Source: Thiohalocapsa sp.
GTDB taxonomy: Bacteria; Pseudomonadota; Gammaproteobacteria; Chromatiales; Chromatiaceae
Direction: 5' to 3'
Assembly: GCA_028277725.1 (NCBI GenBank)
Contig: JANQFX010000046.1
Span: forward strand, 1 to 64,000
DNA: 64,000 bases
Each line of letters starts with the position of its first letter. Positions within the stretch are counted from its first letter, which is position 1. This document shows positions 5,117-25,411 of the stretch, piece by piece. Under the pieces are notes generated by a model. The model was not told where the DNA came from and ran no database searches. It worked only from the letters and a program-made list of their open reading frames with translations. The position numbers and the translations under genes are program-made.

Positions 5117-6166
5117 TCAACCGGGGGGCTGCTCGAACAGGTCCGCCATGGGCGGCGATTCTGGACGCGGCGGCGCCAGGCCGAAGTGCCGATAGGCGCT
5201 CTGGGTTGCCATGCGCCCGCGCGGGGTACGGAGCAGGTACCCCTGCTGGATCAGGAAGGGCTCGAGCACGTCCTCGATGGTGCCGCGCTCCTCGCCGATG
5301 GCCGCGGCCAGGCTTTCGACCCCGACGGGTCCGCCGTCGAACTTCTGAATCACCGCTTGCAGTAGGCGCCGGTCCATGTGGTCGAAGCCGAGCTGGTCCA
5401 CCTTGAGCATGCCCAGGGCCTGGTCGGCGACCTCGCGGGTGATCTGGCCGCCGGCCTTGACCTGCGCGAAGTCCCGCACGCGCCTGAGCAGCCGGTTTGC
5501 GATGCGCGGTGTGCCGCGGGAGCGCCGGGCGATCTCGGCGGCGCCGTCTGGCTCGGCGTGGATGGCCAGGATCTGTGCCGAACGCCGGACGATGTGGGCC
5601 AGGTCCTCGGCGCTGTAGTACTCGAGGCGCTGGACGATGCCGAAGCGATCGCGCAATGGGCTGGTGAGCAGGCCGGCCCGCGTCGTGGCGCCGACCAGGG
5701 TGAAGGGCGGCAGGTCGAGCTTGATGGAGCGCGCGGCCGGCCCCTCGCCGATCATGATGTCGAGCTGGAAGTCCTCCATGGCCGGGTAGAGGATCTCCTC
5801 GACCACCGGGCTCAGGCGATGGATCTCGTCGACGAAGAGCACGTCGCCGCTCTCCAGATTGGTCAGCAGCGCGGCGAGGTCGCCGGGTTTCTCCAACACC
5901 GGACCCGAGGTCTGGCGCAGGTTGACCTGCATCTCATGGGCGATGATGTGCGACAGCGTGGTCTTGCCGAGCCCGGGCGGGCCGAAGATCAGCGTGTGGT
6001 CCAGGGCCTCGGCGCGACCACGGGCGGCGCCGATGAAGATCTCCATCTGCTCGCGCACCGCGGGCTGGCCGACGTAGTCGACGAGCTTGCGCGGCCGGAT
6101 GGCGCGGTCCAGCGCGCCGTCTTCGGCGGCTTCCGCTGGGTCGATGACGCGTTCGGGTTCGTCCAT
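5117..6166 (-). CDS. ruvB: Holliday junction branch-migration ATPase RuvB
   Basis: RuvB is the ring ATPase that drives branch migration with RuvA. The 349 residues show the standard order: an N-terminal [11 protein letters not shown] segment, Walker [10 protein letters not shown] (62-70), Walker B with sensor residues [21 protein letters not shown], arginine-finger region SPLRDRFGI, and the C-terminal winged helix with [12 protein letters not shown] and TPRGR. Length and motifs are normal. In many gammaproteobacteria ruvB follows ruvC and ruvA and precedes ybgC-tolQ. Here neither neighbour is present, although ybgC-tolQ lies 57 kb away in the same window. Upstream is the DnaA-box-rich spacer. 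Confidence 0.97.
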
Positions 6167-6404
6167 CCGGTTTCAGTCTGGTTCTCTGCTGCTGAGCTCA
6201 GGGAGACGGCGATCACCGGCCCTTGCCTAAGGAGAGGCCGATTGCTGGCCATCCATGGCCGAAGTCGGTGCGGGAAGCGCCGATAAACGATAAAGCAGCG
6301 CTTCTCTAACGGTAACCCAAGACCAGGCCACCCGGCGAGTAACCCGCGCCGGCCATCCACGCACTGCTCATCCGGCGGGCTGTTGAGAAACCTGCGCGGT
6401 AGGT

Positions 6405-6561
6405 TGTGGATAAGCTGTGGGTGCTTTGGGACGGAAAACTTATCGACAGGTTATTCACAGGTGGAGGACATCGAGCCAACAGTTTTCCACAACCGCAACA
6501 CATTGGCGAGCTGAGCAAAATCGTCGCTTTTCGGGTTGTCCACTGCATCTGTAACTACTGA
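6405..6561. other. DnaA-box cluster with origin-like unwinding element
   Basis: The 557-bp spacer between ruvB and the GT2 gene contains perfect DnaA boxes TGTGGATAA (6405-6413) and TTATTCACA (6451-6459). Near matches are TTATCGACA (6440-6448), TTTTCCACA (6483-6491) and TTGTCCACT (6536-6544). The last is followed by TAACTACTGAT, resembling the DnaA-trio stretch of bacterial origins. Without gaps, 6518-6561 matches 20557-20600 of the dnaA-dnaN spacer at 30 of 44 positions. This could be a second origin module, a DnaA titration site or a relic of an origin duplication. The remainder of the spacer (6167-6404, 6562-6723) shows nothing I recognise. Confidence 0.6.
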
Positions 6562-6723
6562 TTTGGAGAATTCCCAACATGACAATAGGCCCACCCCATG
6601 GGCCGCTCCTCGGCCCGATTACGAGCCCAATCGGTGCGGAGAACGGCGGTGGACGCCTCGGCACGTTGTGCTTAAGCTGGCGAGCTGACTGATGCCGGCC
6701 ACCGAACTCCCAATCGCAGTACC

Positions 6724-7764
6724 ATGCACGCGCCCCAGACCACGCCGGATGCCGCATCCAGACAGGCCCTCGATGCCGATCCGATGAGCCTGTCCGTGGT
6801 GATTCCGATGTTCGAGGAAGCCGAGAACGTCGAGCCGCTCCTGGCGCGCATCCATGAAGGACTCGCTGGGTACGCAGGCCCCTGGGAGCTGATCCTGGTG
6901 GATGACGGCAGCCGCGACGGCACGGGAGATCGGCTGGCAGCCGCCGCGGAGACCTATGGGCGGCACGTACGCATGATTCGGTTTCGCCGGAACTTTGGCC
7001 AGACCGCGGCCATGCAGGCGGGTTTCGACGCCGCGCGCGGTCAGCTGGTGGCGAGCCTGGACGGGGATCTGCAAAACGATCCGGCGGACATCCCGCGCAT
7101 GGTGCGGGAGCTCTTGGATCGCGACCTCGACCTGCTCCAAGGCTGGCGGCGCAACCGCCAGGATGCGCTGGTGAAGCGCAAGTTGCCATCTCGCATCGCA
7201 AACGGGCTCATCGGCCGGGTGACCGGGGTCGACCTGCACGACTACGGCTGCAGCCTGAAGGTCTATCGGGCGGAGGTCATCAAGGAGGTGCGGCTATTCG
7301 GCGAGATGCACCGGTTCATTCCGGTCTGGGTCGCCGGCATCACCGACCCGGCGCGCATCGGCGAGACCGAGGTCACCCATCGCGCGCGCGAACGCGGGGA
7401 GTCCAAATACGGCATCTCGCGGACCTTTCGCGTCCTGCTGGATCTGCTGGTGGCCTTCTTCTTCCTTCGCTACGGTGCGCGGCCCGGGCACTTCTTCGGC
7501 GCCATCGGTCTCGGCTTCGGAACCGTCGGCGGGCTCATGATGACTTGGCTGTTGATCGTGAAGTTTGGCCTCGGTGAGGACATCGGGCAGCGGCCCATGC
7601 TCTTCGTCGCGATCCTGCTGCTGGTGGCCTCCATCCAGTTCCTGACCACCGGTGTGCTGGCGGAGGTACTGTCGCGGACCTTCTTTGCCTCCCACGAACG
7701 CACGCACCACTGTATCCGCTGGGAGTCCGATCCGGCGCTGGCCGCATGGAAGGCCCCGGCTTGA
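6724..7764 (+). CDS. GT2 family polyprenyl-phosphate glycosyltransferase
   Basis: The 346-residue protein is of the ArnC/GtrB/DPM1 type, which loads a sugar onto undecaprenyl phosphate. The GT-A fold shows as SVVIPMFEEAENV, LILVDDGSRDGT, FRRNFGQTAAMQAGF and ASLDGDLQNDP with its DxD-type metal site. VTHRARERGESKYGISRTF follows, then two C-terminal membrane segments (about residues 242-275 and 280-305). Another possible start, 20 codons downstream (MSLSVVIPM, 6784), fits the family better than the first ATG. It overlaps the next gene by 19 bases, so the GT2 and GT39 genes are coupled. The linked sugar cannot be told from sequence. Confidence 0.88.
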   Translation: MHAPQTTPDAASRQALDADPMSLSVVIPMFEEAENVEPLLARIHEGLAGYAGPWELILVDDGSRDGTGDRLAAAAETYGRHVRMIRFRRNFGQTAAMQAGFDAARGQLVASLDGDLQNDPADIPRMVRELLDRDLDLLQGWRRNRQDALVKRKLPSRIANGLIGRVTGVDLHDYGCSLKVYRAEVIKEVRLFGEMHRFIPVWVAGITDPARIGETEVTHRARERGESKYGISRTFRVLLDLLVAFFFLRYGARPGHFFGAIGLGFGTVGGLMMTWLLIVKFGLGEDIGQRPMLFVAILLLVASIQFLTTGVLAEVLSRTFFASHERTHHCIRWESDPALAAWKAPA

Positions 7765-9347
7765 TCACCAACCGCAGGGACCCTTGGCTGACGCCGCCGA
7801 CGGCCTTCGCGCTGTTGGCGCTGGCCGTGTGGCTGGCGTTCTTCTGGCAGCTCGGCGCGGTGCCCCTATACGACCTCGATGAGGGCGCCTTCACCGAGGC
7901 CACCCGCGAGATGTTGGCAAGCGGCAACTTCATCACGCCGCACCGCGACGGCGAGCCGCGCTACGACAAGCCGGTGCTGATCTATTGGCTGCAGGCGGCG
8001 TCCGTGTCGCTGCTCGGCTTCAACGAGTTCGCGCTGCGCCTGCCGTCGGCCCTGGCCGCGACCCTCTGGCTGGTGGTGCTCTGGGGCTTCACCCGAGCCC
8101 GGCTCGATGCCGCCACCGCGACGGTGGCGGCGCTGATCATGGCGTTTGGTCTGCAGGTCGCCATCATCGGCAAGGCGGCGGTGGCCGACGCGGTGCTGAA
8201 CCTGTTCATCGCGCTGAGCTTCTTCGATATCTACCGCTGGCTGGAGCGGCCGAGTCGCGGGCTGTTGCTGCGGGTGTACCTATGGCTCGGGCTCGGGTTC
8301 CTGACCAAGGGTCCGGTGGCGGTGTTCTTCCCGCTGTTGGTGAGTCTGGCCTACTGCGGATCGTTGGGACGATGGCGAGATTGGCTGCGGGCGGTGTTCG
8401 CGCCGCTCGGCTGGCTGGTGTTCGTCGCCGTGGCCGGTCCCTGGTACCTGGCCATCTACATCGACGACGGGGCGGGGTTCTTCCAGAACTTCTTCCTGGA
8501 CCACAACATCGGCCGCTACGGCGGCGTGAAGCACGGGCACGCGGGCTTCCCCGGTTACTATTTCGTGATGTTGCCGCTGGTGCTGTTGCCCTTCACCGGC
8601 TGGTTCCTGCGCCTGCTGCCCATGGCGCGGGCGCTCTGGTCGGACCCGCTGGACCGCTTCCTGGTGATCTGGTTTGTCCTGGTGTTCGTGACCTTTTCGT
8701 TTTCGGACACCAAGCTGCCGCACTACATGGTGTATGGCATCACGCCCCTGTTCATCCTGATGGCCCGGCACCGCGCGGCGCTGCGCAACCGCTGGCTGGC
8801 GTTTACGCCTCCGCTGCTGTTCCTGGCGCTGTTGGCCGTTCTACCTCTGCTGGTTGGGCCCCTGTCGGCGCAGGCGAACCGGGCGCACGAGCAGGCCATG
8901 TTCGCGGACGCCGCGCGGGTGCTGGACTGGCGTTACCTTATTGCCGTGATCGCGGGGTTCGCGACGGTCTTGCTGCTGGCGCTGATGCCGGGGATCGCGC
9001 TCTGGCGCCGCCTGCTCCTTGCCGGCGCCGTGCAAACGCTGGTGGTGTTCGGCACCGTGGTACCGCGGGTATTCGAGGTCATGCAGGCGCCGGTGAAGGA
9101 GGCCGGGCAACTCGCCGCGCGCATGGACCTGCCTACGGTGGTCTACCGGACCAGCATGCCGAGCTTCAGCGTCTATCGCGGGGCCGTGACGCCGCAGGTA
9201 CCGGCGCCGGAGCCGGGACACCTGGTCTTCCTGCGCGTCGACAAGCTGCAGCGCCTGGCGGCGACCCGTCCCGAGTCGTCGCTGACGGTGATCTACCGAC
9301 GCGGTCCGGTGGCCTTGGCGATCTTCGGCGACGTTGCCGAACATTAG
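7746..9347 (+). CDS. GT39-type (ArnT-like) membrane glycosyltransferase
   Basis: The 533-residue integral membrane protein belongs to the ArnT/PMT superfamily, which moves a sugar from a polyprenyl-phosphate carrier to lipid A or protein in the periplasm. The first periplasmic loop has the expected acidic motif LYDLDEGAFTEATREML, followed by RYDKPVLIYWLQ and, further on, LTKGPVAVFFPL. About eleven hydrophobic segments follow, and DTKLPHYMVY is typical of this family. The C-terminal soluble part is short. It uses the lipid-linked sugar made by the overlapping GT2 gene. The acceptor is unknown. Confidence 0.88.
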   Translation: MEGPGLITNRRDPWLTPPTAFALLALAVWLAFFWQLGAVPLYDLDEGAFTEATREMLASGNFITPHRDGEPRYDKPVLIYWLQAASVSLLGFNEFALRLPSALAATLWLVVLWGFTRARLDAATATVAALIMAFGLQVAIIGKAAVADAVLNLFIALSFFDIYRWLERPSRGLLLRVYLWLGLGFLTKGPVAVFFPLLVSLAYCGSLGRWRDWLRAVFAPLGWLVFVAVAGPWYLAIYIDDGAGFFQNFFLDHNIGRYGGVKHGHAGFPGYYFVMLPLVLLPFTGWFLRLLPMARALWSDPLDRFLVIWFVLVFVTFSFSDTKLPHYMVYGITPLFILMARHRAALRNRWLAFTPPLLFLALLAVLPLLVGPLSAQANRAHEQAMFADAARVLDWRYLIAVIAGFATVLLLALMPGIALWRRLLLAGAVQTLVVFGTVVPRVFEVMQAPVKEAGQLAARMDLPTVVYRTSMPSFSVYRGAVTPQVPAPEPGHLVFLRVDKLQRLAATRPESSLTVIYRRGPVALAIFGDVAEH

Positions 9348-9365
9348 TCTTCGGAGCATGGGATC

Positions 9366-10244
9366 TTGATTGGTCAGCTCGCATCCGACTGGGCAGCGGA
9401 CCAGCAGCTGGCGCTGGTGCGCGGCGTCGCCCGTGATCCGGCGCCAGATGCCGCCGCGGAGTCCTGGCTCACGCAAACCGTCTTGACCTTGCTGGTGCTC
9501 GGCACCGGCCTCTGGGCGCTGTGCGGTTATCACGCGGGCTTCGAGCGACTCAATGGCGCCGCGGCGAGGCTCCCGCCGGAGCTTTGGCAATGGTTGACGA
9601 TGCTCGGTGACGAGCGGGTCGCTTTCGCGCTTGGACTCCTTGCCGCCCGACGGCACCCGCAGGTGTTCTGGGCGCTCATTTGCGCCGGCGTCGTCGCGCT
9701 GGCCTACGCGCGCGGCCTCAAGCCCATCTTCGACGCGGCACGGCCGCCGGCGGTGCTCGACCCGGGTACGTTCAACCTGATCGGCCCCGGCCATCGCGGC
9801 AAGGGCTTCCCATCCGGCCACAGCACGACCGCCGGGGTCTTGTTCGGCGTGTTCCTCTGCTTCGCAAAGCGTTGGCATTGGCGGCTGCTGTTCCTAACGT
9901 TGGCGCTGTTTGCGGGTGCGAGCCGTGTCGCCGTCGGCGTCCATTGGCCCGTCGACGTGGCCTTCGGACTCGGGGGCGGCATGCTCTCCGCCTGGGTGGG
10001 AATACGACTGGCCAGGCGCTTCTCCTGGGGTATCGAAGATGCCTCGGTGCACCTCGCACTGGTGACCTTGGGCGTCTTCGTCAGCATCAGGCTCTGGTTC
10101 GACGACAGTGGTTATTCCGCCGCGGCACTGCCGCTGCGGGTGCTTTGTGTGGCCGTGCTCGGCTACACAGTGTTGGCGTACGCGCTGTTGCCGGGCTGGC
10201 GGGTGCTGCGGCGTACCCTCGCCCCCAGCCCCAGGTCGGTTTGA
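9366..10244 (+). CDS. PAP2-family membrane phosphatase
   Basis: The 292-residue membrane protein has the complete PAP2 triad: KPIFDAARP (119-127), PSGHS (149-153) and SRVAVGVHWPVDV (about 178-190). About six membrane segments are present. Enzymes of this group dephosphorylate lipid phosphates such as undecaprenyl diphosphate or lipid A. After the GT2 and GT39 genes, recycling of polyprenyl carrier or lipid A dephosphorylation are both plausible. The frame has no early ATG. I used TTG at 9366, 18 bases after the GT39 stop, and a later start is possible. Confidence 0.85.
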   Translation: MIGQLASDWAADQQLALVRGVARDPAPDAAAESWLTQTVLTLLVLGTGLWALCGYHAGFERLNGAAARLPPELWQWLTMLGDERVAFALGLLAARRHPQVFWALICAGVVALAYARGLKPIFDAARPPAVLDPGTFNLIGPGHRGKGFPSGHSTTAGVLFGVFLCFAKRWHWRLLFLTLALFAGASRVAVGVHWPVDVAFGLGGGMLSAWVGIRLARRFSWGIEDASVHLALVTLGVFVSIRLWFDDSGYSAAALPLRVLCVAVLGYTVLAYALLPGWRVLRRTLAPSPRSV

Positions 10245-10308
10245 ACCATCCTGCCAGCATGCGGCGAACGAGGCGGGTGCACGCACCAGTGGCGTACCAT
10301 CTCAGACG

Positions 10309-11190
10309 ATGGCTTCTCGCAGTTCCAGTGTGATTTGCCGGTGGTGCGCCCGGACCGGAGTCGCCCTGTTCGCCGCCCTGTTTCAGGCGAGCCAGGTCGG
10401 CGCGTCGGATCTGCCGCGTGTGATGGGTACCAACCTGTGCGCGGACCTGCTGCTGCTCTCGCTGGCCGCGCCCGAGCAGATCGTCTCGCTGTCGCGTGCG
10501 AGCCATGATCCTTCCCGGTCCCAGGTCGCGGACCGAGTTCGCGCCTACCCGATGAATCGCGGCGGAGTGGAGGACCTGCTCTATCGGCAACCTGACATCG
10601 CCTTGGTGTTTCAGGGCTGGACGGGTGGGCGCTTCAAGGGCTTGCTCGCAGGGCAGGATATCCGGCTCCTGCCCATGCCCTATCCCACCGGCTGGGACGA
10701 CGCGCTGGCCACGGCGCGGACGGTGGCACGGGAAATCGGCCGCGCTGAGGAGGGCGAGGCCATCATTGCCGCGGCGGAAGCCCGCATGCACGCCCTGGCC
10801 GAGGGATTACCGGCGTTGCGCACCCTGTACCTGCGCCCCGGTGGAGGCAGCGCCGGAGCTGGAACCTTCGTCGATGATGTTCTAACGCGGCTCGGACTGC
10901 GCAACCTTGCCAGGGAGGCGGGGCACACCGGCTGGGGGAGGTTCCCGCTCGAGCGCATCGTCGCGGACCCGCCTGAGCTGTTCGTGCTCGGCTACTTCGA
11001 CCAGGCGCTACCGCTGACAGACTCCAGCTATGCGCGGCATCCGTTGCTGCGCGACCTGCTTTCGCGAACGCCGAGCATTGCTGTTCCCAGCAACGGCTGG
11101 GGCTGTGGTGGGCTGGAGCTGCTCGAGGCCGCCACGACCATCGCGGAGGCTGTCCGAGGACTGACGTCGACCAGAGCGAACCGCCCGTGA
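10309..11190 (+). CDS. btuF: Cobalamin ABC transporter, periplasmic binding protein
   Basis: The product has 293 residues. The open frame extends upstream, but ATG 10309 is chosen because an Arg-containing N-terminus and hydrophobic signal peptide (VALFAALFQASQVGAS) follow. The mature part is a TroA/BtuF-type helical-backbone binding protein: LPRVMGTNLCADLLLLSLAA, IVSLSRASHDP, then two lobes, ending SNGWGCGGLELLEAATTI. The best support for cobalamin rather than iron chelate as ligand is the overlapping string btuC, btuD and a cobyrinate amidase gene. Its end overlaps btuC by four bases. I found no adenosylcobalamin riboswitch in the 64 bases upstream. Confidence 0.82.
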   Translation: MASRSSSVICRWCARTGVALFAALFQASQVGASDLPRVMGTNLCADLLLLSLAAPEQIVSLSRASHDPSRSQVADRVRAYPMNRGGVEDLLYRQPDIALVFQGWTGGRFKGLLAGQDIRLLPMPYPTGWDDALATARTVAREIGRAEEGEAIIAAAEARMHALAEGLPALRTLYLRPGGGSAGAGTFVDDVLTRLGLRNLAREAGHTGWGRFPLERIVADPPELFVLGYFDQALPLTDSSYARHPLLRDLLSRTPSIAVPSNGWGCGGLELLEAATTIAEAVRGLTSTRANRP

Positions 11191-12230
11191 CGTCCACCCC
11201 TGTTGTGGTGAGGGAGACGACGGCCGACGCCCCGAGGATGGCACGATCCCGGTTGCTCACGCTCGGACTCTTCTGCCTGCTGCTCGCGCTGAGCCTGGCC
11301 TCGCTCGGGTTCGGCGCCGCGCCGCTGTCCTGGGCAGAAGTGCTCGGCGGGCTGTTTGGACTCGGCTCGGAGCAGCATCGCCTCATCGTCACCGAGATCC
11401 GTCTGCCGAGGGTCCTGCTGGCCTGGCTGCTCGGTGCGGCGCTCGGCATGTCGGGCGCCGCCTTGCAGGGCCTGCTGCGCAACCCCCTCGCCGAGCCGGG
11501 GTTGCTCGGCATCTCCTCCAGCGCCGGACTCGGCGCGGTGTTGGCGCTCTACTGCGGCCTGACGGCCCTGAGCATCTGGGCCCTGCCGGTGTCGGCCATG
11601 ATGGCTGCCCTGTTGGCCACGCTGCTGCTGTACGGCCTCACCCGGGGCGGTGCATCGAACCTGACCCTGATCCTGGCGGGGATCGCGCTGTCGTCCCTGG
11701 CAGGTGCGCTCACATCGTTGGCGCTGAACCTGGCACCGAATCCAGCGAGTCTGCAGGACATCGTGCTCTGGCTGCTGGGTTCCATTGCCGACCGTAGCCT
11801 GGCCGATGTCCGGCTGGTCCTACCCTTCGTGCTGCTCGGACTCGGCTTGCTGCTGGCCGCGGCGCCGGCCCTGACCCTACTGAGCCTCGGCGAAGGCGAG
11901 GCGAGCAGCCTCGGGGTGCACCTGTCGCGGGTGCGGGCACTGATCATCGGCGGCAGCGCCCTGTCGGTTGGGGCCTGCGTGTCCGTCACCGGCACCATCG
12001 GGTTCGTCGGGCTCGTGGTGCCGCATCTGCTCCGGGGTCTGGTGGGGCATCGACCTGGCGCCCTGCTGCTGCCGAGTGCCATTGGAGGGGCGGTGCTGGT
12101 GCTCGCTGCAGACCTTCTGATCCGCCTGCTCGATACGCCCAGGGAGTTGATGCTCGGCGTCGTCACCGCGCTGGTGGGGGCGCCGTTCTTCATGGCGCTG
12201 GTGCTGAAGAGCCGCGGGGGCATGCTGTGA
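11187..12230 (+). CDS. btuC: Cobalamin ABC transporter permease
   Basis: The 347-residue permease is of the FecCD/BtuC family, with about ten membrane helices. Family signatures include EIRLPRVLLAWLLGAALGMS, GAALQGLLRNPLAEPGLLGI and SVTGTIGFVGLVVPHLLR. The last contains the loop that contacts the ATPase. It imports the ligand delivered by BtuF through the inner membrane, powered by BtuD. Starts and stops overlap with both neighbours (ATGA-type), so the three components are translationally coupled. Iron-siderophore permeases look alike, so the substrate assignment leans on context. Confidence 0.85.
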   Translation: MTSTPVVVRETTADAPRMARSRLLTLGLFCLLLALSLASLGFGAAPLSWAEVLGGLFGLGSEQHRLIVTEIRLPRVLLAWLLGAALGMSGAALQGLLRNPLAEPGLLGISSSAGLGAVLALYCGLTALSIWALPVSAMMAALLATLLLYGLTRGGASNLTLILAGIALSSLAGALTSLALNLAPNPASLQDIVLWLLGSIADRSLADVRLVLPFVLLGLGLLLAAAPALTLLSLGEGEASSLGVHLSRVRALIIGGSALSVGACVSVTGTIGFVGLVVPHLLRGLVGHRPGALLLPSAIGGAVLVLAADLLIRLLDTPRELMLGVVTALVGAPFFMALVLKSRGGML

Positions 12231-13045
12231 GCCTGCTCTCCACCGAGGGGCTGACGGTGCGCATCGCCGGGCGTACCCTGCTGGATGGGATCGATCTGGA
12301 CATCGACGCCGGCGAGCTGATCGGCCTGATCGGTCCGAACGGTGCCGGCAAGTCGACCCTGATCAAGGCGCTGGTCGGGCTGGTCGCGCACCAGGGGCGG
12401 GTGCTGTATCGAGGCCGCCCCATCACGCGCTTATCGCGGGGGGAACGCGCACGCGCCCTGTCCTACCTGAGCCAGGAGAATCAGGTCCAGTGGCCGATTC
12501 GGGTAGAGGAGCTGGTGGAGCTCGGGCGCTTTCCGCACCGCATGGGCTGGAGCGACCGCTGGATGGGTGGGCAAGCGGCCAGTGCGGCCGAGGCGGACCG
12601 CAGCGCCGTCGAGCGGGCCCTGCGCGCGGCGGACGTCTGGGACCTGCGCTCGCGGCGGGTGGATCGACTATCCGGCGGCGAGCGGGCGAGGGCACGGCTG
12701 GCGCGCGTCCTCGCGGTGGAGGCGCCCGTGCTGCTCGCCGACGAGCCGGTGGCGGCGCTCGACCCCAGACACCAACTGGAGGTAATGGCGCTGCTGCGGT
12801 CCCATTGCCGAGCCGGAGGCGGCGCCGTGGTCGTGCTGCACGACCTGACCCTTGCGAGCCGCTTCTGCGATCGCCTGCTGCTCCTGCATCACGGCAGGCG
12901 CATCGCCGCGGGCGAGGTGCAGTCCGTCCTGTCGATGCAGAATCTGTCATCTGTTTACGGCATCGAGGCCCTCTTCGGCCGTCACGATGGGCAGGACTAC
13001 GTGGTCCCCTGGACCAGCGCATCCTCAGGGGAGCGAAAGGCATGA
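12227..13045 (+). CDS. btuD: Cobalamin ABC transporter ATPase
   Basis: The 272-residue ABC ATPase shows Walker A GPNGAGKST (about 37-45), Q-loop SYLSQENQVQWP, signature LSGGERARARLARVL, Walker B VLLADEPVAALDP and switch HDLTLASRFCD. It opens with a GTG-type start overlapping btuC and ends overlapping the cobyrinate amidase start. The family includes FecE/FhuC-like siderophore ATPases, so the cobalamin assignment rests on the downstream gene. Confidence 0.85.
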   Translation: MSLLSTEGLTVRIAGRTLLDGIDLDIDAGELIGLIGPNGAGKSTLIKALVGLVAHQGRVLYRGRPITRLSRGERARALSYLSQENQVQWPIRVEELVELGRFPHRMGWSDRWMGGQAASAAEADRSAVERALRAADVWDLRSRRVDRLSGGERARARLARVLAVEAPVLLADEPVAALDPRHQLEVMALLRSHCRAGGGAVVVLHDLTLASRFCDRLLLLHHGRRIAAGEVQSVLSMQNLSSVYGIEALFGRHDGQDYVVPWTSASSGERKA

Positions 13046-14382
13046 ACCACGAGCCAACGGAGAACCCATTGAAAGCGAGTGCTGGGGGTGAGTTGCGACC
13101 CTGCCCGGCGCTGCTGGTGTCCGGGGTCGCCTCCGGTCAGGGCAAGACCACCCTGACCGCCGCGTTGGCGCGGCATCACGTCCGTCGCGGCCGGCGAGTA
13201 CGGGTATTCAAGGTCGGACCGGATTTCCTCGATCCGATGATCCTGGGGCGCATCAGCGGTGCGGCGGTGTCTCCGCTGGACCTGTGGATGGTGGGCGAGG
13301 CGGAGTGTGCCCGGCTACTGTTCGAGGCTGCGGCGGAGGCGGACCTGATCCTGGTGGAAGGCGCCATGGGCCTGTTCGATGGCGACCCCAGCGCCGCGGA
13401 CCTGGCGGAGCGTTTCGGACTCCCGATCGCCGCTCTGATCGACGCCCGCGGCATGGGCCAGACCTTCGGCGCCCTCGCGCTCGGGGTGGCCACGCGACGG
13501 GCCACGCTGGACGTGCTCGGCGTCGCCGCCAATCGGGTCGCCGGGGAGCGCCATCTGGACATGATCCGCGCCGGGATGCCGGAGTCGGTGCGGCTGCTCG
13601 GGGCCCTGCCGCGGCTCGACGCCACGAGCCTGCCCAGCCGCCACCTGGGCCTGGTGCAGGCCAGCGAGGTCGCGGACCTGGAGACGCGCATCGACGCGGT
13701 GGCGGACCTGCTGGCGGGTTCCGAGCTCGCGGTGCTTCCGCCCGAGGTGGGGTTCATCGCACCGCCGGGGTCCAAGCCGACCCCCAGTATGTTGGCCGGC
13801 AGGCGCATCGCGGTGGCGCGGGACGAGGCGTTCTCCTTCCTCTACGGCGAAAACCTAAGAGTGCTGCGCGCATTGGGCGCCGAGATCCTGTTCTTCTCCC
13901 CGCTGGCGGACAGCGACGTCAGCGCCGATGCCATCTACCTACCCGGCGGCTATCCGGAACTGCACCTGGACGCACTCGGCGGCAACAGCGGCATGCGCGC
14001 CGCCCTGCATGCGCACGTGGGCGCCGGCCGACCCCTCTATGCGGAGTGCGGCGGCATGCTCTATTTGCTGCGCAGGCTCACGGACAGGTCGGGCCGGGGC
14101 GCCGAGCTCGCGGGCCTGCTGCCCGGCGAGGCCCACATGCAGCCGAGGCTCGCCGGGCTCGGCATGCAGGCGTTGGCCACGGCCGACGGAGAGCTGCGCG
14201 GCCATAGCTTCCACCACTCGACCATGAGCGCCGACCTCGCACCCGTCGCCCACGCCCTGCGCCAACACGGCCGGCGACCGGGCGAGGCCTTCTACCGCCA
14301 CGGACCCATCCGCGCGAGCTATCTCCACCTGTACTTCCCGTCCAATCCAATCGCGGCAGGTCGATTCTTCTTGCCCGATTGA
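13042..14382 (+). CDS. cobB: Cobyrinate a,c-diamide synthase
   Basis: CobB/CbiA amidates two side chains of cobyrinate or its hydrogenated form during vitamin B12 synthesis, using glutamine and ATP. The 446 residues contain the N-terminal dethiobiotin-synthetase-like ATPase (SGVASGQGKTTLTAAL, VFKVGPDFLDP, LVEGAMGLFDG). The C-terminal glutaminase domain has nucleophile Cys in YAECGGMLYL and RGHSFHHS. An upstream extension of the frame overlaps btuD completely; the ATG at 13042 in an ATGA overlap is the natural start. It is convergent with mnmE, 21 bp away. Pairing import and a synthesis step suggests salvage of corrinoids as well as synthesis. Confidence 0.92.
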   Translation: MNHEPTENPLKASAGGELRPCPALLVSGVASGQGKTTLTAALARHHVRRGRRVRVFKVGPDFLDPMILGRISGAAVSPLDLWMVGEAECARLLFEAAAEADLILVEGAMGLFDGDPSAADLAERFGLPIAALIDARGMGQTFGALALGVATRRATLDVLGVAANRVAGERHLDMIRAGMPESVRLLGALPRLDATSLPSRHLGLVQASEVADLETRIDAVADLLAGSELAVLPPEVGFIAPPGSKPTPSMLAGRRIAVARDEAFSFLYGENLRVLRALGAEILFFSPLADSDVSADAIYLPGGYPELHLDALGGNSGMRAALHAHVGAGRPLYAECGGMLYLLRRLTDRSGRGAELAGLLPGEAHMQPRLAGLGMQALATADGELRGHSFHHSTMSADLAPVAHALRQHGRRPGEAFYRHGPIRASYLHLYFPSNPIAAGRFFLPD

Positions 14383-14403
14383 ACACTCGCCTCGGTGCTG
14401 GCG

Positions 14404-15771
14404 TCACTTGCCGATGCAGAACTCGGAGAAGATCTTGCCCAGCAGATCGTCCGAAGAGACGACGCCGGTGACCTCGCCGAGGCATTCCTGGGCGAGCCGT
14501 AGGTCTTCCGCCACCAGTTCCGGCGACTGATGCCGGGTGCTCGCCGCGTGGGCCGCGTGCAGGTGTGCGCGGGTGCGTTCGAGTGCATCGAGGTGCCGTC
14601 GGCGGGCGCTGAACTCTCCGCCCATATTGGCGCCGTCCCCCAAACCGACCCGATGCAGCAGCTCGGCGCACAGGGCATCGAGTCCTGCACCGGTGGTCGC
14701 GGAGCAGGCGATTTCGACCGCGGCGTTCGGGCTGGCGGCCAACCGGCCCGGCGCGCGCCCGCTGAGGTCGATCTTGTTGCGGATGCGCAGCAGCGAGGTA
14801 GCCGGTGTCAGGTCGATGCCCAGGTCGGCATCCGCTTCGGAAACCTGGTCTGTCTCGGCGTCGTCGATGAGCCAGAGCACCAGGTCGGCCTGTTCGATTT
14901 GCGCTCGGGCTCGACGAACGCCCTCCTGTTCGATCGGGTCCGGAGACAGGCGCAGGCCGGCGGTATCGACGACGCGCAGTGGCGTACCGTCGATGTCGAT
15001 ATCGGCGTGGAGGAGGTCGCGGGTGGTGCCGGGGATGGGGGTAACGATGGCCCGGTCGGAATCGGACAGCGCATTGAGCAGGCTGGACTTGCCGGCGTTC
15101 GGTGGGCCGGCCAGGACGACGAGTAAGCCGTCGCGCAGGCGTTCTCCGCGGCGTGCGGAGTCGAGCAGGGTGTCGAGCTGTTGGAGGAGGTCCGCGATGG
15201 CGCCCTGCGCGCGGGCGTCCAGGCCGTCCTCCAGCTCCTCGTCGGGGAAGTCGAGCGTGGCCTCGAGGTAGGCACGCTCGCGGGTCAGTGCGTCGAGCAG
15301 CGCATCCACGCGGCGGGCAAAGGCGCCGGTCAGGGAGCGGGCGGCGAGCTTGGCCTGGCGTTCCGTGCCGCTCGCGATGAGGTCGGCGATGGCCTCGGCG
15401 CGGGTCAGGTCGAGTTTGCCCTCGAGGAAGGCGCGCTCGGTGAACTCGCCGGGACGGGCCGCGCGGGCGCCGAGGGACAGGATGCGTGCAAGCAGGCGGT
15501 CTAGGACCACCGGGCCGCCGTGGCCCTGGAGTTCGAGCACGTGCTCGCCCGTGAAGGAGCGTGGCGCCGGAAAATAGAGCGCGAGCCCCTGGTCGATGAC
15601 CTCGCCGTCGGTGTCGATGAACCTGGCGAGGTGGGCGCGGCGCGGCGCAGGTAGGGCACCGATCAGCGCCGGGGCGAGTTCGGGCACCCGAGGCCCGGAG
15701 ATGCGCAGGATGCCGACGGCGCCGATGCCGGGGGCCGTCGCCACGGCCGCGATGGTGTCACGCTCGGCCAT
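14404..15771 (-). CDS. mnmE: tRNA U34 modification GTPase MnmE
   Basis: With MnmG, MnmE makes 5-carboxymethylaminomethyl uridine at the tRNA wobble position. The 455 residues hold the N-terminal folate-binding domain (DTIAAVATAPGIGAVGILRISG), a helical domain and an inserted G domain. The latter has P-loop GPPNAGKSSLLN, IPGTTRDLL, DTAGLR and RNKID. The C-terminus is the conserved FCIGK with the functional Cys. Length is normal. It is the last gene of the rpmH-rnpA-yidC-mnmE run. mnmG, rsmG and parAB, frequent neighbours elsewhere, are not in the window. Confidence 0.97.
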   Translation of the reverse strand: MAERDTIAAVATAPGIGAVGILRISGPRVPELAPALIGALPAPRRAHLARFIDTDGEVIDQGLALYFPAPRSFTGEHVLELQGHGGPVVLDRLLARILSLGARAARPGEFTERAFLEGKLDLTRAEAIADLIASGTERQAKLAARSLTGAFARRVDALLDALTRERAYLEATLDFPDEELEDGLDARAQGAIADLLQQLDTLLDSARRGERLRDGLLVVLAGPPNAGKSSLLNALSDSDRAIVTPIPGTTRDLLHADIDIDGTPLRVVDTAGLRLSPDPIEQEGVRRARAQIEQADLVLWLIDDAETDQVSEADADLGIDLTPATSLLRIRNKIDLSGRAPGRLAASPNAAVEIACSATTGAGLDALCAELLHRVGLGDGANMGGEFSARRRHLDALERTRAHLHAAHAASTRHQSPELVAEDLRLAQECLGEVTGVVSSDDLLGKIFSEFCIGK

Positions 15772-15828
15772 GATGTTGGCCTAGGTCGGGAGCAAGGGGG
15801 CGAGCGCTATCACGGTCCATCGTGCTTG

Positions 15829-15858
15829 GTCCGCCCGCCCGGGGTCGGGCAGGCGGAC
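15829..15858. terminator. Strong stem-loop between yidC and mnmE
   Basis: Arms GTCCGCC and GGCGGAC enclose a second stem GCCCG and CGGGC with a GGGT loop. Only one C-A mismatch interrupts a pairing of about 12 bp. It lies just downstream of the yidC stop on the minus strand. No T-run follows, so partial termination or RNA processing is as likely as full termination before mnmE. Confidence 0.45.
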
Positions 15859-15874
15859 GGCGTAGCGCGGTGCG

Positions 15875-17581
15875 TCAGGCCTTGTGCTTGGCGGCCTCGG
15901 CCTGTTCGATCTGGCGCGTGATGTACCACTGCTGGGCGATGGACAGCAGCTGGTTCACGGTCCAGTAGAGCACCAAACCCGACGGGAAGAACGCGAAGAA
16001 GACCGTGAACACGAAGGGCAGGGCCATGAAGATCTTCTCCTGCATCGGGTCCGGCGGCGGCGGGTTGAGCTTCTGCTGGATGAACATGGACACGCCCATG
16101 ATCAATGGCAGCACGAACCAGGGATCCGGCTCGGTGAGGTTGTCCAGCCACAGAATGAACGGCGCGTGGCGCAGCTCCACACTCTCGAGCAACACCCAGT
16201 ACAGGGCAATGAAGACCGGGATCTGGACCAGGATGGGCAGGCAGCCACCGAGCGGGTTGATCTTCTCGGTCTTGTACATCTCCATCATGGCCTGGTTCAG
16301 ACGTTCCTTGTCGTCGCCGTAGCGGTCCTTCAGGGCCTTCAGGCGCGGTGCGAGCTTGCGCATGTTGGCCATGGACTTGTAGCTGGCCTCGGACAGCTTG
16401 TAGAACGCGGCCTTGATCAGGATGGTCAGGATGATGATTGCCCAGCCCCAGTTGCCCACCAGGGAGTGGATCAGGTTCAGGAGCCAGAAGATGGGCTTGG
16501 CGATGATGGTGAGCCAGCCATAGTCGACGGCGAGTTCCAGACCGGGCGCGACCTCTTCGAGGGTCTCCTGCAGCTTGGGGCCCGCGAACAGACGCGTTTC
16601 GAAGGTGTGGGTTGCTCCTGGCGCGATGGTCGTCGCGTCGGAGTATTGACCGATGATGTATCGGTCCCCGCCGACGACCTTGGTATAGAAGGTTTGGGGT
16701 TCGTCGGCACCGGGGATCCAGGCGGCCACGAAATAGTGCTGGATCATCGCGATCCAACCGCCCGTGATGGTGACGTCCAGGGGCTCCTTCTCGATCTCCT
16801 TGAAGGTCTCCTTCTTGTACTTGACCTCGGGCCCGTAGTAGACCGCACCGGTGTAGGTGTGGATGAAGCTGGATTCGTTGGGGTCGTCCAGGGGGGTCCG
16901 CTGCAGTTGGTCGTAATTGCGCAGGGCGATGGGGGCACCGGTCCCGTTGATGATCTCCTGCTCGGCGTGGATGACGTAGTTGCCGCGCTCGAAGCGGTAG
17001 CGCTTGACGACCTCCAGTCCGAGCGCGTTGCGCCACGTCAGCTCGACCACCAACGAGTCTTGATCGTCAGCGAGGCGATACTCGGTGTTCTCGGCGGTGA
17101 AATCCGCCGTGTGCGTCGGCAGCCCAGCGTCCGCGGCCCCCAAGAGGCCGGATTGGACGATGAACATGTTCGGGGGCGCAGGTTTCAACAGTTGGAGAGG
17201 ATCATCGGGCCGGTCGGCAACGGCGGGGTAGTCCTTCAGCCAGAGCGACTGGATAGTCCCGCCGCGGCTGGAAATCTGGGCCCGGACGACGTCGGTCTCG
17301 ACCTCGATGATGCTCGCGGCATCCGCGACGGCGCCGGCAACCCCGGGGGAATCGGCAGCGGGGGATGGCACCGAGGGTGCGCTCGGCGCGTCCGCAGGCA
17401 CGCCCGGCCGGTCGGCGGCTGTGCTGAAGGTGTCGGATCCGTCGGCATCCGATGAAGCGGGGGGAGTTGAGGCTGCGACCGGGGCCTGAGGGGCACGGCC
17501 GTAGTCTTGGACCCATGCCTGGTAGATCAGGAACAGGACCGCGCCCAGGGACAGGAGCAGGATGAGCCGGAAGTTGTCCAT
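15875..17581 (-). CDS. yidC: Membrane protein insertase YidC
   Basis: YidC inserts and folds inner-membrane proteins, alone or with SecYEG. The 568 residues show the gammaproteobacterial form: an N-terminal membrane anchor (LILLLSLGAVLFLIYQAW), a low-complexity Ala/Pro/Ser linker, a large periplasmic beta-sandwich (SSRGGTIQSLWLKDYP to about residue 350), and the five-helix core. The core includes NWGWAIIILTILIKAAFYKL, MANMRKLAPRLKALKDRYGD, GGCLPILVQIPVFIALYWVL and FFAFFPSGLVLYW. The protein ends in charged KHKA. yidD, which usually separates rnpA from yidC, is not found in the 216-bp gap upstream. Confidence 0.97.
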   Translation of the reverse strand: MDNFRLILLLSLGAVLFLIYQAWVQDYGRAPQAPVAASTPPASSDADGSDTFSTAADRPGVPADAPSAPSVPSPAADSPGVAGAVADAASIIEVETDVVRAQISSRGGTIQSLWLKDYPAVADRPDDPLQLLKPAPPNMFIVQSGLLGAADAGLPTHTADFTAENTEYRLADDQDSLVVELTWRNALGLEVVKRYRFERGNYVIHAEQEIINGTGAPIALRNYDQLQRTPLDDPNESSFIHTYTGAVYYGPEVKYKKETFKEIEKEPLDVTITGGWIAMIQHYFVAAWIPGADEPQTFYTKVVGGDRYIIGQYSDATTIAPGATHTFETRLFAGPKLQETLEEVAPGLELAVDYGWLTIIAKPIFWLLNLIHSLVGNWGWAIIILTILIKAAFYKLSEASYKSMANMRKLAPRLKALKDRYGDDKERLNQAMMEMYKTEKINPLGGCLPILVQIPVFIALYWVLLESVELRHAPFILWLDNLTEPDPWFVLPLIMGVSMFIQQKLNPPPPDPMQEKIFMALPFVFTVFFAFFPSGLVLYWTVNQLLSIAQQWYITRQIEQAEAAKHKA

Positions 17582-17797
17582 GAGGATGCTGCTGAGTTGG
17601 TTGTCGGCGATGCGGACCGCCGCAATCGGGCTGCAGGGCGGGAGGCATCGGTTTCATGCCTCTCCGTTGGGCGACCAATTTCAGGTACCCAGGTCCGCAG
17701 TCCGAGCGGGCGAGTTTGGCGATGAGGGCAGGCTGCCCGAGACGAACGACCCCGGCGCCATAGTTGCCGGGGAGGGCGATTCTACGCTGGGAACGAC

Positions 17798-18217
17798 CTA
17801 CCTGTGCGCTCGCGCCGTACGCGGACTCCGGCGCACGGATTTCCCCAGATATGCAAAATGCGTACGGAGCGACTCCCGGACCGACATGCGTGTGGCTCCC
17901 CGCACTCCCGCCCTTGCCACAACCACCACATCGAGCGCATCAGGGAAGGGCGCGTGGCGAAATGCCTCCCGCACGAGGCGCTTGATCCGGTTGCGGTCGA
18001 CCGCACGCGGAAGTGCCTTGCGGGAGATAGCGAGTCCAAGGCGGCTTCCGGTCCCTGGGGCAGCCTGGCGCGGGGCGGCACTGATTGCAAAGAAGCGATC
18101 TGCACAACGCTCACCCTCGCGGAACACTCTGGAGAAGTCGGCCGCTAGAAGTAGCCGACGCCCCTTTGAAAAACGGTGATCCAGTGTTGGAGGCGCGTTC
18201 GAGGGCGCTGGCCGCAC
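17798..18217 (-). CDS. rnpA: Ribonuclease P protein component
   Basis: RnpA is the protein subunit that helps RNase P RNA process tRNA 5' ends. The 139 residues contain the N-terminal FSKGRRLLLAADFSRVF, the central SRLGLAISRKALPRAVDRN with the RNR motif (RNRIKRLVREAFR), and the end of the domain DVVVVARAGV. It lies 170 bp downstream of rpmH in the standard order. Nothing recognisable occupies 17582-17797 between its stop and yidC; I specifically looked on the minus strand for the Cys-rich YidD pattern and did not find it. Confidence 0.95.
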   Translation of the reverse strand: MRPAPSNAPPTLDHRFSKGRRLLLAADFSRVFREGERCADRFFAISAAPRQAAPGTGSRLGLAISRKALPRAVDRNRIKRLVREAFRHAPFPDALDVVVVARAGVRGATRMSVRESLRTHFAYLGKSVRRSPRTARAHR

Positions 18218-18387
18218 GGATGGGTAGTCGATCGTCGCCTAGAAAACCTTGTACCCAAGCGTCACAGCGAGCGGTTGGCGTTCCGTCCCGTCTTCCCGAT
18301 GCCCCTTGCACAGGACCAACGGCATCACTCTCCGGGAAGAGCCGATTCTCACAGTGTCACTCAGACGCTCACGGTCCGGATGTCCGC

Positions 18388-19094: not shown

Positions 19095-20441
19095 ATGAGC
19101 GAACTTTGGGAGCATTGCACCGAGGCACTCAAAGAGGACCTGACGGGCGCTGAGTTCACCACCTGGATCATGCCCCTGCAGGCACGGGAGGACGAGGGCG
19201 TCATGGCGCTGTGGGCACCGAACCGGTTCGTCAAGGACTGGGTCAAGCAACACTACGAGCAACGCATCACCCGGTTGTGTACCGACATCAGCAACGGGCG
19301 GGTGCAGCAGGTGCGCTTCGAGATCGGAACCGTCGACGGCGGGCAGGGTCGGACGGAGCCCGAGCCGACCAGGCCTTTACGCCGGCCCCAACCCGCCGTG
19401 TCGATCGATCGGCGTCGAGCCGAGAGCAATCTCAACAAAGAGTTCATCTTTTCGACCTTCGTCGAGGGCAAGTCGAACCAGATCGCACGGGCCGCATCGG
19501 TTCAGATCGGCCAGAACCCGGGTACGGCATATAACCCGCTGTTCATCTACGGCGGGGTTGGCCTGGGAAAGACACATCTGATGCATGCGGTCGGCAATAC
19601 CATTTTGGATACCAACCCGGGCGCACAGGTGATCTACGTCCATTCGGAGCGCTTCGTATCGGACATGATCCGAGCGCTTCAGCACAACAAGATGGACGAC
19701 TTCAAGGCACGCTACCGACGCGTGAACGCGCTTCTGATCGACGACGTGCAGTTCTTCGCCAACAAGGACCGTTCGCAGGAAGAGTTCTTCCACACCTTCA
19801 ACACGCTGTTCGAGAGCAAGCAGCAGATCGTGCTGTCAAGCGATCGTTACCCGAAAGAGGTGAGCGGGCTCGAGGAACGGCTCAAGTCGCGCTTCGGATG
19901 GGGGCTCACCGTGGGCATTGAGCCGCCCGACTTCGAAACACGCGTCGCGATCCTGCACAGCAAGGCCTCGATGCTCAACATCGAGCTGCCCGAGGACGTT
20001 GGGTTCTTCATCGCCAAGCGGATGACCTCCAACATCCGGGAGTTGGAGGGCGCATTGCGACGGCTGGTCGCGAACTCACAGTTCATGGGCGCGACCATCG
20101 ACATGGCCTTTACTCGGGACGTGCTACGCGACATGTTGGTCGCACAGGACCGGCAGATCACCATCGAGAACATCAAGAAGACCGTTGCGGACCACTACAA
20201 GCTCCGGGTGTCGGACCTGACGTCGGCCAAGCGCACGCGGGCCATCGCGCGTCCACGTCAGGTGGCCATGGCCCTGGCAAAGGAGCTGACGAAGAGTAGC
20301 CTTCCGGAAATCGGCAACGCATTTGGCGGCCGCGACCACAGCACGGTGATACATGCTACACGCAAGGTGGAAGCCTTGCGTGCCAGCGATACGATGATCG
20401 AAGAGGACTACCGCATCCTGTTGAGAACACTGACGAGTTAG
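19095..20441 (+). CDS. dnaA: Chromosomal replication initiator DnaA
   Basis: DnaA binds 9-bp boxes at the origin and opens DNA. The 448 residues show domain I (ELWEHCTEALKEDLTGAEFT), a short variable linker (about 85-105), and the AAA+ domain with Walker A GGVGLGKT (153-160) and Walker B ALLIDDVQFF. Domain IV ends with the DnaA signature GGRDHSTVIHA. The open frame continues upstream, but ATG 19095 gives the conserved N-terminus. The spacing to dnaN (198 bp) contains the origin-like boxes. Confidence 0.98.
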   Translation: MSELWEHCTEALKEDLTGAEFTTWIMPLQAREDEGVMALWAPNRFVKDWVKQHYEQRITRLCTDISNGRVQQVRFEIGTVDGGQGRTEPEPTRPLRRPQPAVSIDRRRAESNLNKEFIFSTFVEGKSNQIARAASVQIGQNPGTAYNPLFIYGGVGLGKTHLMHAVGNTILDTNPGAQVIYVHSERFVSDMIRALQHNKMDDFKARYRRVNALLIDDVQFFANKDRSQEEFFHTFNTLFESKQQIVLSSDRYPKEVSGLEERLKSRFGWGLTVGIEPPDFETRVAILHSKASMLNIELPEDVGFFIAKRMTSNIRELEGALRRLVANSQFMGATIDMAFTRDVLRDMLVAQDRQITIENIKKTVADHYKLRVSDLTSAKRTRAIARPRQVAMALAKELTKSSLPEIGNAFGGRDHSTVIHATRKVEALRASDTMIEEDYRILLRTLTS

Positions 20442-20442
20442 T

Positions 20443-20605
20443 TGTGGACAAACTGTTGGCACTTTCGAGAGACTGGGTTGCCCACAGCTTGTCCACAGAC
20501 GCCGGGGCCATTGTCCACGGGGTTTGAGATCCAGTAAAGGGCTGAACCAAATAGTCAAATCGCGTTCTGTCGGATTATCCACAGCGCTTGTTACTACTAA
20601 GATTC
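20443..20605. other. Candidate replication origin (dnaA-dnaN spacer)
   Basis: Five DnaA-box-like nonamers fill the gap: TGTGGACAA (20443-20451), TTGCCCACA (20478-20486), TTGTCCACA (20489-20497), TTGTCCACG (20511-20519) and the perfect TTATCCACA (20575-20583). The perfect box is followed by GCGC and then TTACTACTAAGAT (from 20591). This matches the box, GC cluster and DnaA-trio order of the basal unwinding element described in bacterial origins. Together with dnaA, dnaN, recF and gyrB alongside, this is the leading candidate for oriC, though the 6.4-kb cluster competes. Confidence 0.65.
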
Positions 20606-20639
20606 TTGAACGTTCATCAGTGCATAGGGGCGTGGCGTC

Positions 20640-21740
20640 GTGAAGATCGAGATCGCACAGCAAGAGCTTGCCGCAGTACTCGGGTCCGTTGCCGGAGTGG
20701 TGGAGAGGCGGCAGACACTGCCGATTCTGGCGAATGTGCTACTTAACGCGGAAGGTCAACGTTTGTCCCTAGCCGCAACGGATCTGGAGATCGGCGTGCA
20801 GACGGACACGCCTTGCCAAGTGATCGAGGCTGGTGCGTTGACGGTACCCGCGCGGAAACTGTCCGATTTCTGCCGCTCGCTGCCCGGAACGGCAACGGTG
20901 AAGATCAAGAACGACGGGGAGCGCTGTGTCGTCTCGAGCGGGCGGACACGCTTCACACTATCGACCTTGCCCGCGGCGGATTTTCCCGACATCGCCATGG
21001 AGGACGATCTGAATTCGTTTCAGATGCCGGTTGCCGCACTCAAGACCCTCTTGGACAAGACCGCGTTTGCCATGGCGCAGCAGGATGTTCGCTACTATCT
21101 GAATGGTGTCATGTTGGAGTTCGGTTCTAACGACCTGGTCGCCGTGGCGACGGATGGCCATCGTCTGTCCATGGTGCGCTCGGAGATCGATGTGCCAGAG
21201 GCGGAGCGGGAACAGATCATCCTCCCCGCGAAGACCGTCTCGGAGTTGCGCCGATTGCTGGCGGAGTCTGAGGAGCACGTCGCAGTTCAGTGGGGAGGGC
21301 GCTCCATCATCCTAACTTTCGGTGGCGTGGAGCTGCGGTCCAAGCTGGTGGATGGGAAGTATCCGGAGTACGAGAGGGTCGTACCGCGCGGGTTGCCCCG
21401 CAGCGCCGTAGTCGAGCGAGACGCGTTGCGAGCGGCGCTGCAGCGCGCATCGATCCTGTCCAACGAGAAGTACAAGGGTGTTCGGGTCAGTTTCGGTGCT
21501 GGCGGACTCGCCTTGCAGGCCCAGAATCCGGAGCATGAGGTCGCCGAGGACGAGGTCCCTGCCGAGTATGACGGCGAGACGGTGACCATTGGCTTCAATG
21601 TGTCTTATCTGATGGATGCCCTGCAGGCGATTGATTCCGATCGGGTGCAAGTGGGGTTTCAGGATTCTGACAGTAGTTCCATCTGGCGTGGCGAGGGTCG
21701 AACCGACGAGACCTTTGTCGTGATGCCGATGCGTCTTTGA
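20640..21740 (+). CDS. dnaN: DNA polymerase III sliding clamp (beta subunit)
   Basis: The clamp encircles DNA and holds polymerase III and many repair proteins. The 366 residues begin at GTG 20640 (MKIEIAQQELAAVLGSVAGV) and show the three repeated clamp domains. Conserved stretches are TLPILANVLL, ATDLEIGV, VATDGHRLS and the C-terminal FVVMPMRL tail that forms part of the partner-binding pocket. Length is typical. It is followed by recF after 41 bp. Confidence 0.98.
   Translation: MKIEIAQQELAAVLGSVAGVVERRQTLPILANVLLNAEGQRLSLAATDLEIGVQTDTPCQVIEAGALTVPARKLSDFCRSLPGTATVKIKNDGERCVVSSGRTRFTLSTLPAADFPDIAMEDDLNSFQMPVAALKTLLDKTAFAMAQQDVRYYLNGVMLEFGSNDLVAVATDGHRLSMVRSEIDVPEAEREQIILPAKTVSELRRLLAESEEHVAVQWGGRSIILTFGGVELRSKLVDGKYPEYERVVPRGLPRSAVVERDALRAALQRASILSNEKYKGVRVSFGAGGLALQAQNPEHEVAEDEVPAEYDGETVTIGFNVSYLMDALQAIDSDRVQVGFQDSDSSSIWRGEGRTDETFVVMPMRL

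Positions 21741-22807: not shown

Positions 22808-25411
<2,604 letters not shown>

Follow-up and report, generated by a model that had tools for sequence, protein, structure and literature searches.

We propose from the sequence that positions 6380-6567 of the window, which is the first 64 kb of the 106,250-bp contig C98 of a Thiohalocapsa draft genome (4.35 Mb, 121 contigs), hold a paralogous copy of the chromosome origin, and we think it rather probable that this copy is a DnaA-binding, DNA-opening site that serves as a second or alternative place of initiation. The rule is one origin per bacterial chromosome. The module lies in a divergent spacer (6167-6723) between ruvB and a gene for a family 2 glycosyltransferase (Table 1); among named relatives, the three closest matches to the RuvB protein come from a Chromatiaceae MAG, Thiocapsa roseopersicina and Thiocapsa imhoffii, which places the organism with the gammaproteobacterial kin of purple sulfur bacteria. 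The paralogue reading is based upon a profile match, a retained layout of DnaA boxes, the retention of conserved columns, a remnant of the dnaA tail and recurrence of such copies within the family. Counted against a second origin are the lack of a skew switch, a weak box at 6536, a shorter run of trios, a higher GC content and the absence of the site in congeners.

Table 1. Origin-related features of the window and the genes beside them (positions in the 64-kb window)
Feature	Position	Strand	Remarks
ruvB, left neighbour	5117..6166	-	Pfam RuvB_N, AAA_lid_4, RuvB_C; 89-93% identity in congeners
Ectopic oriC-type module, homologous over its full length to the dnaA-dnaN origin	6380..6567	+	Profile R1
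Remnant of dnaA 3' end, CTGTTGAGAA	6380..6389	+	Contains weak box TTCTCAACA (minus strand, 6381-6389, 2 mismatches)
Perfect DnaA box TTATCCACA	6405..6413	-	Aligns with left box of aligned origins
DnaA box TTATCGACA	6440..6448	+	1 mismatch
DnaA box TTATTCACA	6451..6459	+	1 mismatch; position of strong plus-strand box in congeners
DnaA box TTTTCCACA	6483..6491	+	1 mismatch; no congener box aligned to it
DnaA box TTGTCCACT	6536..6544	+	2 mismatches; place of unwinding-element box
Three trio-like triplets, CTA CTG ATT	6555..6563	+	10 bp from box 6536; published BUS pattern, loose
Family 2 glycosyltransferase gene, right neighbour	6724..7764	+	Pfam Glycos_transf_2; 77-88% identity in congeners
Two DnaA boxes upstream of dnaA	18683..18710	-	385-412 bp before dnaA start
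dnaA	19095..20441	+	Start chosen by eye inside ORF 18918-20441; adjoins dnaN in nine congeners read
Canonical oriC, dnaA-dnaN spacer	20418..20602	+	R1 107.6 bits (itself a member of R1)
Canonical boxes	20443(-), 20478, 20489, 20511, 20575		
Canonical trios, TTACTACTA	20591-20599		
dnaN	20640..21740	+	ORF

The densest cluster of DnaA boxes in the window is that of the module, with four boxes of at most one mismatch in 160 bp compared with three at dnaA-dnaN. These four fall inside 87 bp, an oriC being expected to have at least three. In total, the window contains 11 boxes of this quality; in 100 shuffled sequences the mean was 3.24 and 11 was never attained. The earlier note had counted two perfect and several near-perfect boxes here. 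Strictly, a single box (6405-6413) is perfect and three (6440, 6451 and 6483) carry one mismatch; that at 6451 is perfect only under the looser DnaA-box consensus TTATNCACA.

For origins of the dnaA-dnaN type, Pelliciari et al. (2021, PMC8287927) describe a basal unwinding system (BUS) in which the unwinding-side box stands no more than 16 bp from three or more NAN triplets. The pattern was applied here as a box of at most two mismatches, a spacer of at most 16 bp and at least three NAN trios (PMC8287927). It is present at the 6536 box (spacer 10) and in the canonical copy, although this is a weak test, since 11 of 60 boxes in the window fit. A box with no more than two mismatches is followed by ACTACT within 20 bp only at the two modules in the window. 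The module resembles the BUS-type oriC, as that source portrays it, in its box array, its box with trios and the orientation of the canonical copy, and differs in lying away from dnaA and dnaN, in the two mismatches of its unwinding-side box and in being a second copy on the contig. Compared with the canonical copy, its left box is stronger (TTATCCACA versus TTGTCCACA) and its unwinding-side box weaker (TTGTCCACT versus TTATCCACA), its trio run is shorter, and the 60-bp stretch directly behind the unwinding side has 57% GC versus 48% at dnaA-dnaN.

When the module itself was used as a DNA query against relatives, little was recovered (top match outside its own genome E 2e-5, to the dnaA-dnaN spacer of G002), and profiles were therefore used. 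R1 was built from nine dnaA-dnaN origins (own genome plus G001-G005 and G007-G009), with the ectopic copy excluded; G006, in which the dnaA-dnaN spacer is devoid of boxes, was for that reason left out of the constraint and model alignments. In a whole-genome search, R1 matched 6380-6560 at 69.7 bits over model positions 1-181 of 185 (E 6.4e-19). Besides the two modules and antisense matches overlapping them, the genome returned a single weak match of 15.3 bits. Canonical copies score 99-126 bits, a comparison biased by their membership of the model.

The eight aligned congeners (G001-G005, G007-G009) share a common box array and trio end in the dnaA-dnaN spacer, and 6380-6567 aligns with these throughout: CTGTTGAGAA, a minus-strand box, plus-strand boxes 35 and 46 bp on, conserved ACAG and TG steps and a final box with TAACTACTG. 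Most of the boxes have the order and strand of the canonical origin, at nearly equal spacing; the first weak box and the box on the unwinding side span 155 bp in the ectopic copy and 156 bp at dnaA-dnaN. CTGTTGAGAA is the dnaA tail of the own genome and of six of the eight congeners, and is one base off in G003 and G004; this remnant, beyond which the coding tail is decayed, points to the dnaA-dnaN spacer as the source. Identity to the dnaA-dnaN origins of the genus is 48-54%, and that of the canonical copies among themselves 53-72%. The module adjoins neither dnaA nor dnaN. The claim of a second origin-like cluster 14 kb from dnaA-dnaN is confirmed at 14,038 bp, and the element proves larger than was claimed, covering 6380-6567 with the dnaA tail. 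The ungapped match of 6518-6561 to 20557-20600 was reproduced at 30 of 44 bases, with at most 24 of 44 elsewhere in the window on both strands, and the view that chance was an unlikely cause is borne out by the R1 E-value. That the 6.4-kb module is a paralogue of oriC, not a chance cluster of boxes, is well supported by these comparisons.

Among the spacer columns invariant in eight congeners, the ectopic copy keeps 29 of 30 and the canonical copy 28 of 30, while of the invariant columns in the dnaA coding tail they keep 11 of 15 and 15 of 15, respectively. The contrast between 29/30 and 11/15 is modest (Fisher p = 0.036). At variable columns both copies agree equally poorly with the majority (19 and 21 of 62). 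This retention is what would be seen if selection acted on the features of the origin but not on the coding remnant; a recent copy from another lineage, conserved in appearance without selection here, would also fit.

The gene order as far as dnaN is conserved from ruvB in G001 and G002, and from the glycosyltransferase gene in G004 and G005. The module is absent from the ruvB/glycosyltransferase gap in all congeners with data, eight of nine; in G007 neither gene was matched. Of 111 loci scanned, seven of them congener ruvB loci, only the own genome's two loci had at least three boxes with one mismatch or none. No such array was present at the glycosyltransferase loci of eight congeners, and no box cluster at 80 ruvB loci of named genomes, a ruvB-centred survey which is silent on copies elsewhere. 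At the module, the only insertion-junction repeat was a 25-nt pair of 72%, which is not convincing.

Copies at other places are frequent. Run over 74 genomes, R1 detected a strong second copy, placed on a different contig, in each of G002 (101 bits), G003 (87) and G008 (86), and in G006, with its box-less dnaA-dnaN spacer, two module copies elsewhere; among the matches listed, no other congener had a full-length second copy. The copy in G002 adjoins a sufS-like aminotransferase gene, and translations inspected by eye place that in G003 beside rsmE-like and condensin-like genes and that in G008 beside a phosphofructokinase-like gene. The two G006 copies (L255 8665-8828 and L256 607-776) are mutually 86% identical and each lies near a contig end, possibly as a tandem pair across a gap.

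R2, a broader profile from 16 hand-picked dnaA-dnaN origins, was run over 194 genomes sampled from the family and matched 158. At least 25 of the 194, in nine genera, have two separated modules, as counted by hand among the matches listed (>=34 bits) with pairs within ~1.2 kb (G011, G117, G179) left out. Both modules are on one contig in 13 of these genomes and on two contigs in 12, in which contamination is possible. The 13 one-contig pairs are 7.2-67 kb apart, a spacing biased by short contigs; the five on contigs of at least 5 Mb (G032, G037, taken as circular, G107, G172 and G217) are also separated by at most 67 kb. Tandem modules a few hundred bases apart were seen in G024 (L156, inside the dnaA-dnaN spacer), G117 and G179.

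The extra or only module stands beside uvrD, mostly in the hemE-uvrD gap, in genera g19, g23, g24, g27, g28, g32, g34 and g77. Among 20 second or relocated sites, uvrD was adjacent at 15 and hemE also at 13, the five g16 sites having neither; the same neighbour check returned dnaA and dnaN at all of 15 dnaA-dnaN sites. Other locations are beside an rpoH-like sigma gene (G037), between mnmE and topA (G044) and in an integrase-transposase gap (G040). The last (L258 6064-8419) is downstream of mnmE, between genes for a phage-type integrase and a DDE transposase, a possible route for the movement of an origin copy. The nearest neighbours of the extra copies are too close in identity to tell own, common or foreign ancestry. 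Given the additional or displaced copies found in relatives at various loci, the oriC of this family seems to duplicate and relocate.

In genus g24, the eight species with both copies listed, out of 11 genomes with matches, keep both modules conserved, with mean pairwise identities of 80% and 79% and invariant columns (106 of 196 and 96 of 201) which by eye are largely boxes and trios. A module was present at six of 30 hemE loci. In four of these six genomes (G027, G031, G036 and G042) the 350 bp preceding dnaN are free of boxes with one mismatch or fewer, and the other two (G032 and G040) keep both modules. Genus g23 contains both situations, the dnaA-dnaN boxes being lost in G031 and both modules kept in G106 and G156. 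The hemE-uvrD copy appears to have replaced the dnaA-dnaN origin in some genera. Loss of boxes is not tied to that copy, which argues against simple exchange, since 10 of 30 dnaN loci lack such a box and six of them are in genomes without a hemE-uvrD copy (G006, G025, G026, G030, G035 and G066). Of these, G006, G026 and G030 match R1 elsewhere, and in G035 neither R1 nor R2 found a module.

Skew analysis gave single-test p values below 0.05 in three of 11 regions (G036, G042 and contig 22 of G008). G036 is a single contig of 3.78 Mb; its cumulative skew, followed to 100 kb from dnaA, is lowest at 22,867 (block-shuffle p = 0.006), 1.4 kb from the hemE-uvrD module (24,237-24,382) and 21 kb from the box-less dnaA-dnaN spacer. 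In G042, the distance of the minimum is 5.6 kb to the module and 50 kb to dnaN (p = 0.048). On contig 22 of G008 the switch is 48 kb from the module, so the support from skew is mainly that of G036. Based upon the lost dnaA-dnaN boxes and the skew minimum near the hemE-uvrD module, the relocated copy is probably the working origin in some relatives. The two-module genomes G032 and G037 gave p = 0.11 and p = 0.25.

C98 itself, which has only 6.4 kb of contig to the left of the module, showed no V-shape at 6.4 or 20.5 kb (p = 0.96); over the 15 kb on the left of the canonical origin its skew is +0.052, and on the right it is near zero. GC skew over the window, C98 and six contigs of four congeners gave no usable switch at any module, and four congeneric dnaA-dnaN contigs tested had no V-shape, including those of G001 and G005, two genomes that yielded no second copy. 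Compared with congeners, four-fold-site skew did not shift consistently in the direction of the 6.4-kb site: plus-strand genes lying between the two modules gave +0.082 (relatives +0.079 to +0.182), mnmE/yidC +0.260, above all seven relatives (+0.100 to +0.234), and dnaA/dnaN/recF +0.035, below all seven (+0.095 to +0.216). To the left of dnaA (window 6000-21000 and the syntenic L202, L203, L206 and L207), most genes in this genus, whichever way they point, are G-rich on the plus strand at their four-fold sites, the opposite of what is expected for an origin at dnaA-dnaN.

We envisage that the gap between ruvB and the glycosyltransferase gene received a stretch copied from a dnaA-dnaN spacer, either of this genus or of a close relative, which ran from the last dnaA codons to slightly beyond the unwinding element; its non-coding part has retained the box array and the box-plus-trio end. 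DnaA would bind the array, an oligomer would load from the 6536 box onto the trio strand, the helix would open, and forks could start at the module beside the dnaA-dnaN origin. Relocation may proceed by copy, coexistence and loss, with the copy at hemE-uvrD supplanting the original in some genera, and the window would represent an intermediate with the old and new modules together, 14 kb apart. The wider proposal, that this bacterium and several genera of the family use two homologous oriC modules at once and that their origins move by this route, so that the window would capture a natural chromosome with two origins of the oriC type, is tentative, and we regard it as possible and no stronger.

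The earlier note had left a choice between true origin, second origin module and DnaA sink. By homology the suggested second origin module stands; for this genome each of the three functions is possible. The refutation proposed in that note came out mixed for skew and conservation: a switch is seen at neither 20.5 nor 6.4 kb, and the boxes are missing from the same gap in the congeners examined while equivalent copies exist at other loci. Among the alternatives, the module might be a sink or regulatory site whose array binds DnaA and tunes initiation at dnaA-dnaN, in the manner of datA or DARS, without firing. In favour of this, among the five boxes that precede the unwinding end, four carry one mismatch or none, and the unwinding-side box carries two; yet a sink needs no whole oriC layout, and here 29 of 30 columns are retained along with the spacing and the box-trio end, and the equivalent copy looks like the working origin in some relatives. 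We consider a sink unlikely, although it is the alternative to be taken most seriously.

More doubtful again is a decaying relic, a copy of the origin which, whether it once worked or never did, is now without function. The 48-54% identity to the origins of the genus, the weak unwinding-side box and the lower score (69.7 against 99-126 bits for canonical copies, biased by their being model members) would all agree with decay, and decay does occur, given the dnaA-dnaN spacers without boxes in related genomes. Canonical copies also diverge widely, however (53-72% identity), and it is the conserved columns that are retained here and the coding remnant that is not.

The divergent gap, with 214 bp to the ruvB start and 157 bp to the glycosyltransferase start, could accommodate a DnaA-controlled promoter region for either or both genes, but a crude scan of 6100-6800 detected no sigma-70-like promoter, the same genes lack the box array in the examined congeners, and the origin layout and dnaA tail would be left unexplained; we give this very little weight. 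A chance cluster or an assembly artefact, for which one might cite a draft of 121 contigs, is scarcely credible in view of the E-value of 6.4e-19, a sequence that differs from the canonical copy and so is not a misplaced repeat, and flanking genes syntenic with congeners on both sides.

Read as a second initiation site, the module can be set beside several known systems. The datA and DARS regions of Escherichia coli are not known to be oriC copies, unlike the module, and the two origins of Pseudomonas aeruginosa flank dnaA, whereas the second copy here is 14 kb off and apparently derived from the dnaA-dnaN spacer. With datA and DARS (PMC4585315) it shares the character of a non-coding DnaA-binding region outside oriC, its own binding being predicted. 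P. aeruginosa, like the present organism a gammaproteobacterium with two origin-like regions, is cited in PMC4403523 as having two autonomously replicating origins, one alone being essential under usual laboratory conditions. Putative double origins with two box clusters per chromosome were listed by Gao (2015, PMC4403523), with a hemE-side cluster in Ralstonia pickettii and Ochrobactrum anthropi, as were duplicated origin regions in Acidaminococcus fermentans and in Mycobacterium bovis BCG Pasteur, the latter with identical copies of a whole rnpA-gyrA block. These cases share with ours two box clusters on one chromosome, but either were predicted in silico or are duplications in which dnaA is included, whereas here the module is short, gene-free and diverged, occurs in nine genera and shows turnover. 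In 2015 Gao found no evidence of two origins ever being used on one natural chromosome (PMC4403523). Caulobacter crescentus has a hemE-side origin (PMC4403523); the relocated module of the window's relatives also adjoins hemE, in a different class of bacteria. In fused-chromosome Vibrio cholerae, according to PMC6284228, both origins are active in NSCV1 and ori2 is silent in NSCV2. The likeness is a natural chromosome with two origin modules (here predicted); the V. cholerae origins are of different types (oriC and plasmid type) brought together by fusion, and both of ours are oriC homologues of one family. Searches of the open literature, outside which most subscription papers fall, listed no paper describing copies of oriC in Chromatiaceae or a gammaproteobacterial hemE-uvrD origin. 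As a kind of element the oriC module is already known, and its recurrent duplication and relocation are, as far as we have seen, new.

If this reading is correct, two oriC modules of the same family are conserved together across a genus and apparently swap roles between genera, a situation unlike the V. cholerae fusion. Such genomes would permit direct tests of dual origin use and of the relocation route, and the spacer next to dnaA could not be presumed to be the origin in this family.

Rfam and tRNA scans of the 64-kb window gave no matches. A perfect box is located 1.6-1.9 kb before dnaN in six of eight relatives read, at about the dnaA start (the position of dnaA was measured only in G006 and G027); together with the boxes at 18683-18710, these counterparts suggest a conserved autoregulation of dnaA. 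Near the contig end, a short ORF (576-962) with weak helix-turn-helix matches below the Pfam cut-off has, by eye, the look of an insertion-sequence accessory gene, and a second short ORF (1122-1490) shows a weak match, again below the Pfam cut-off, to an Xre-like antitoxin domain.
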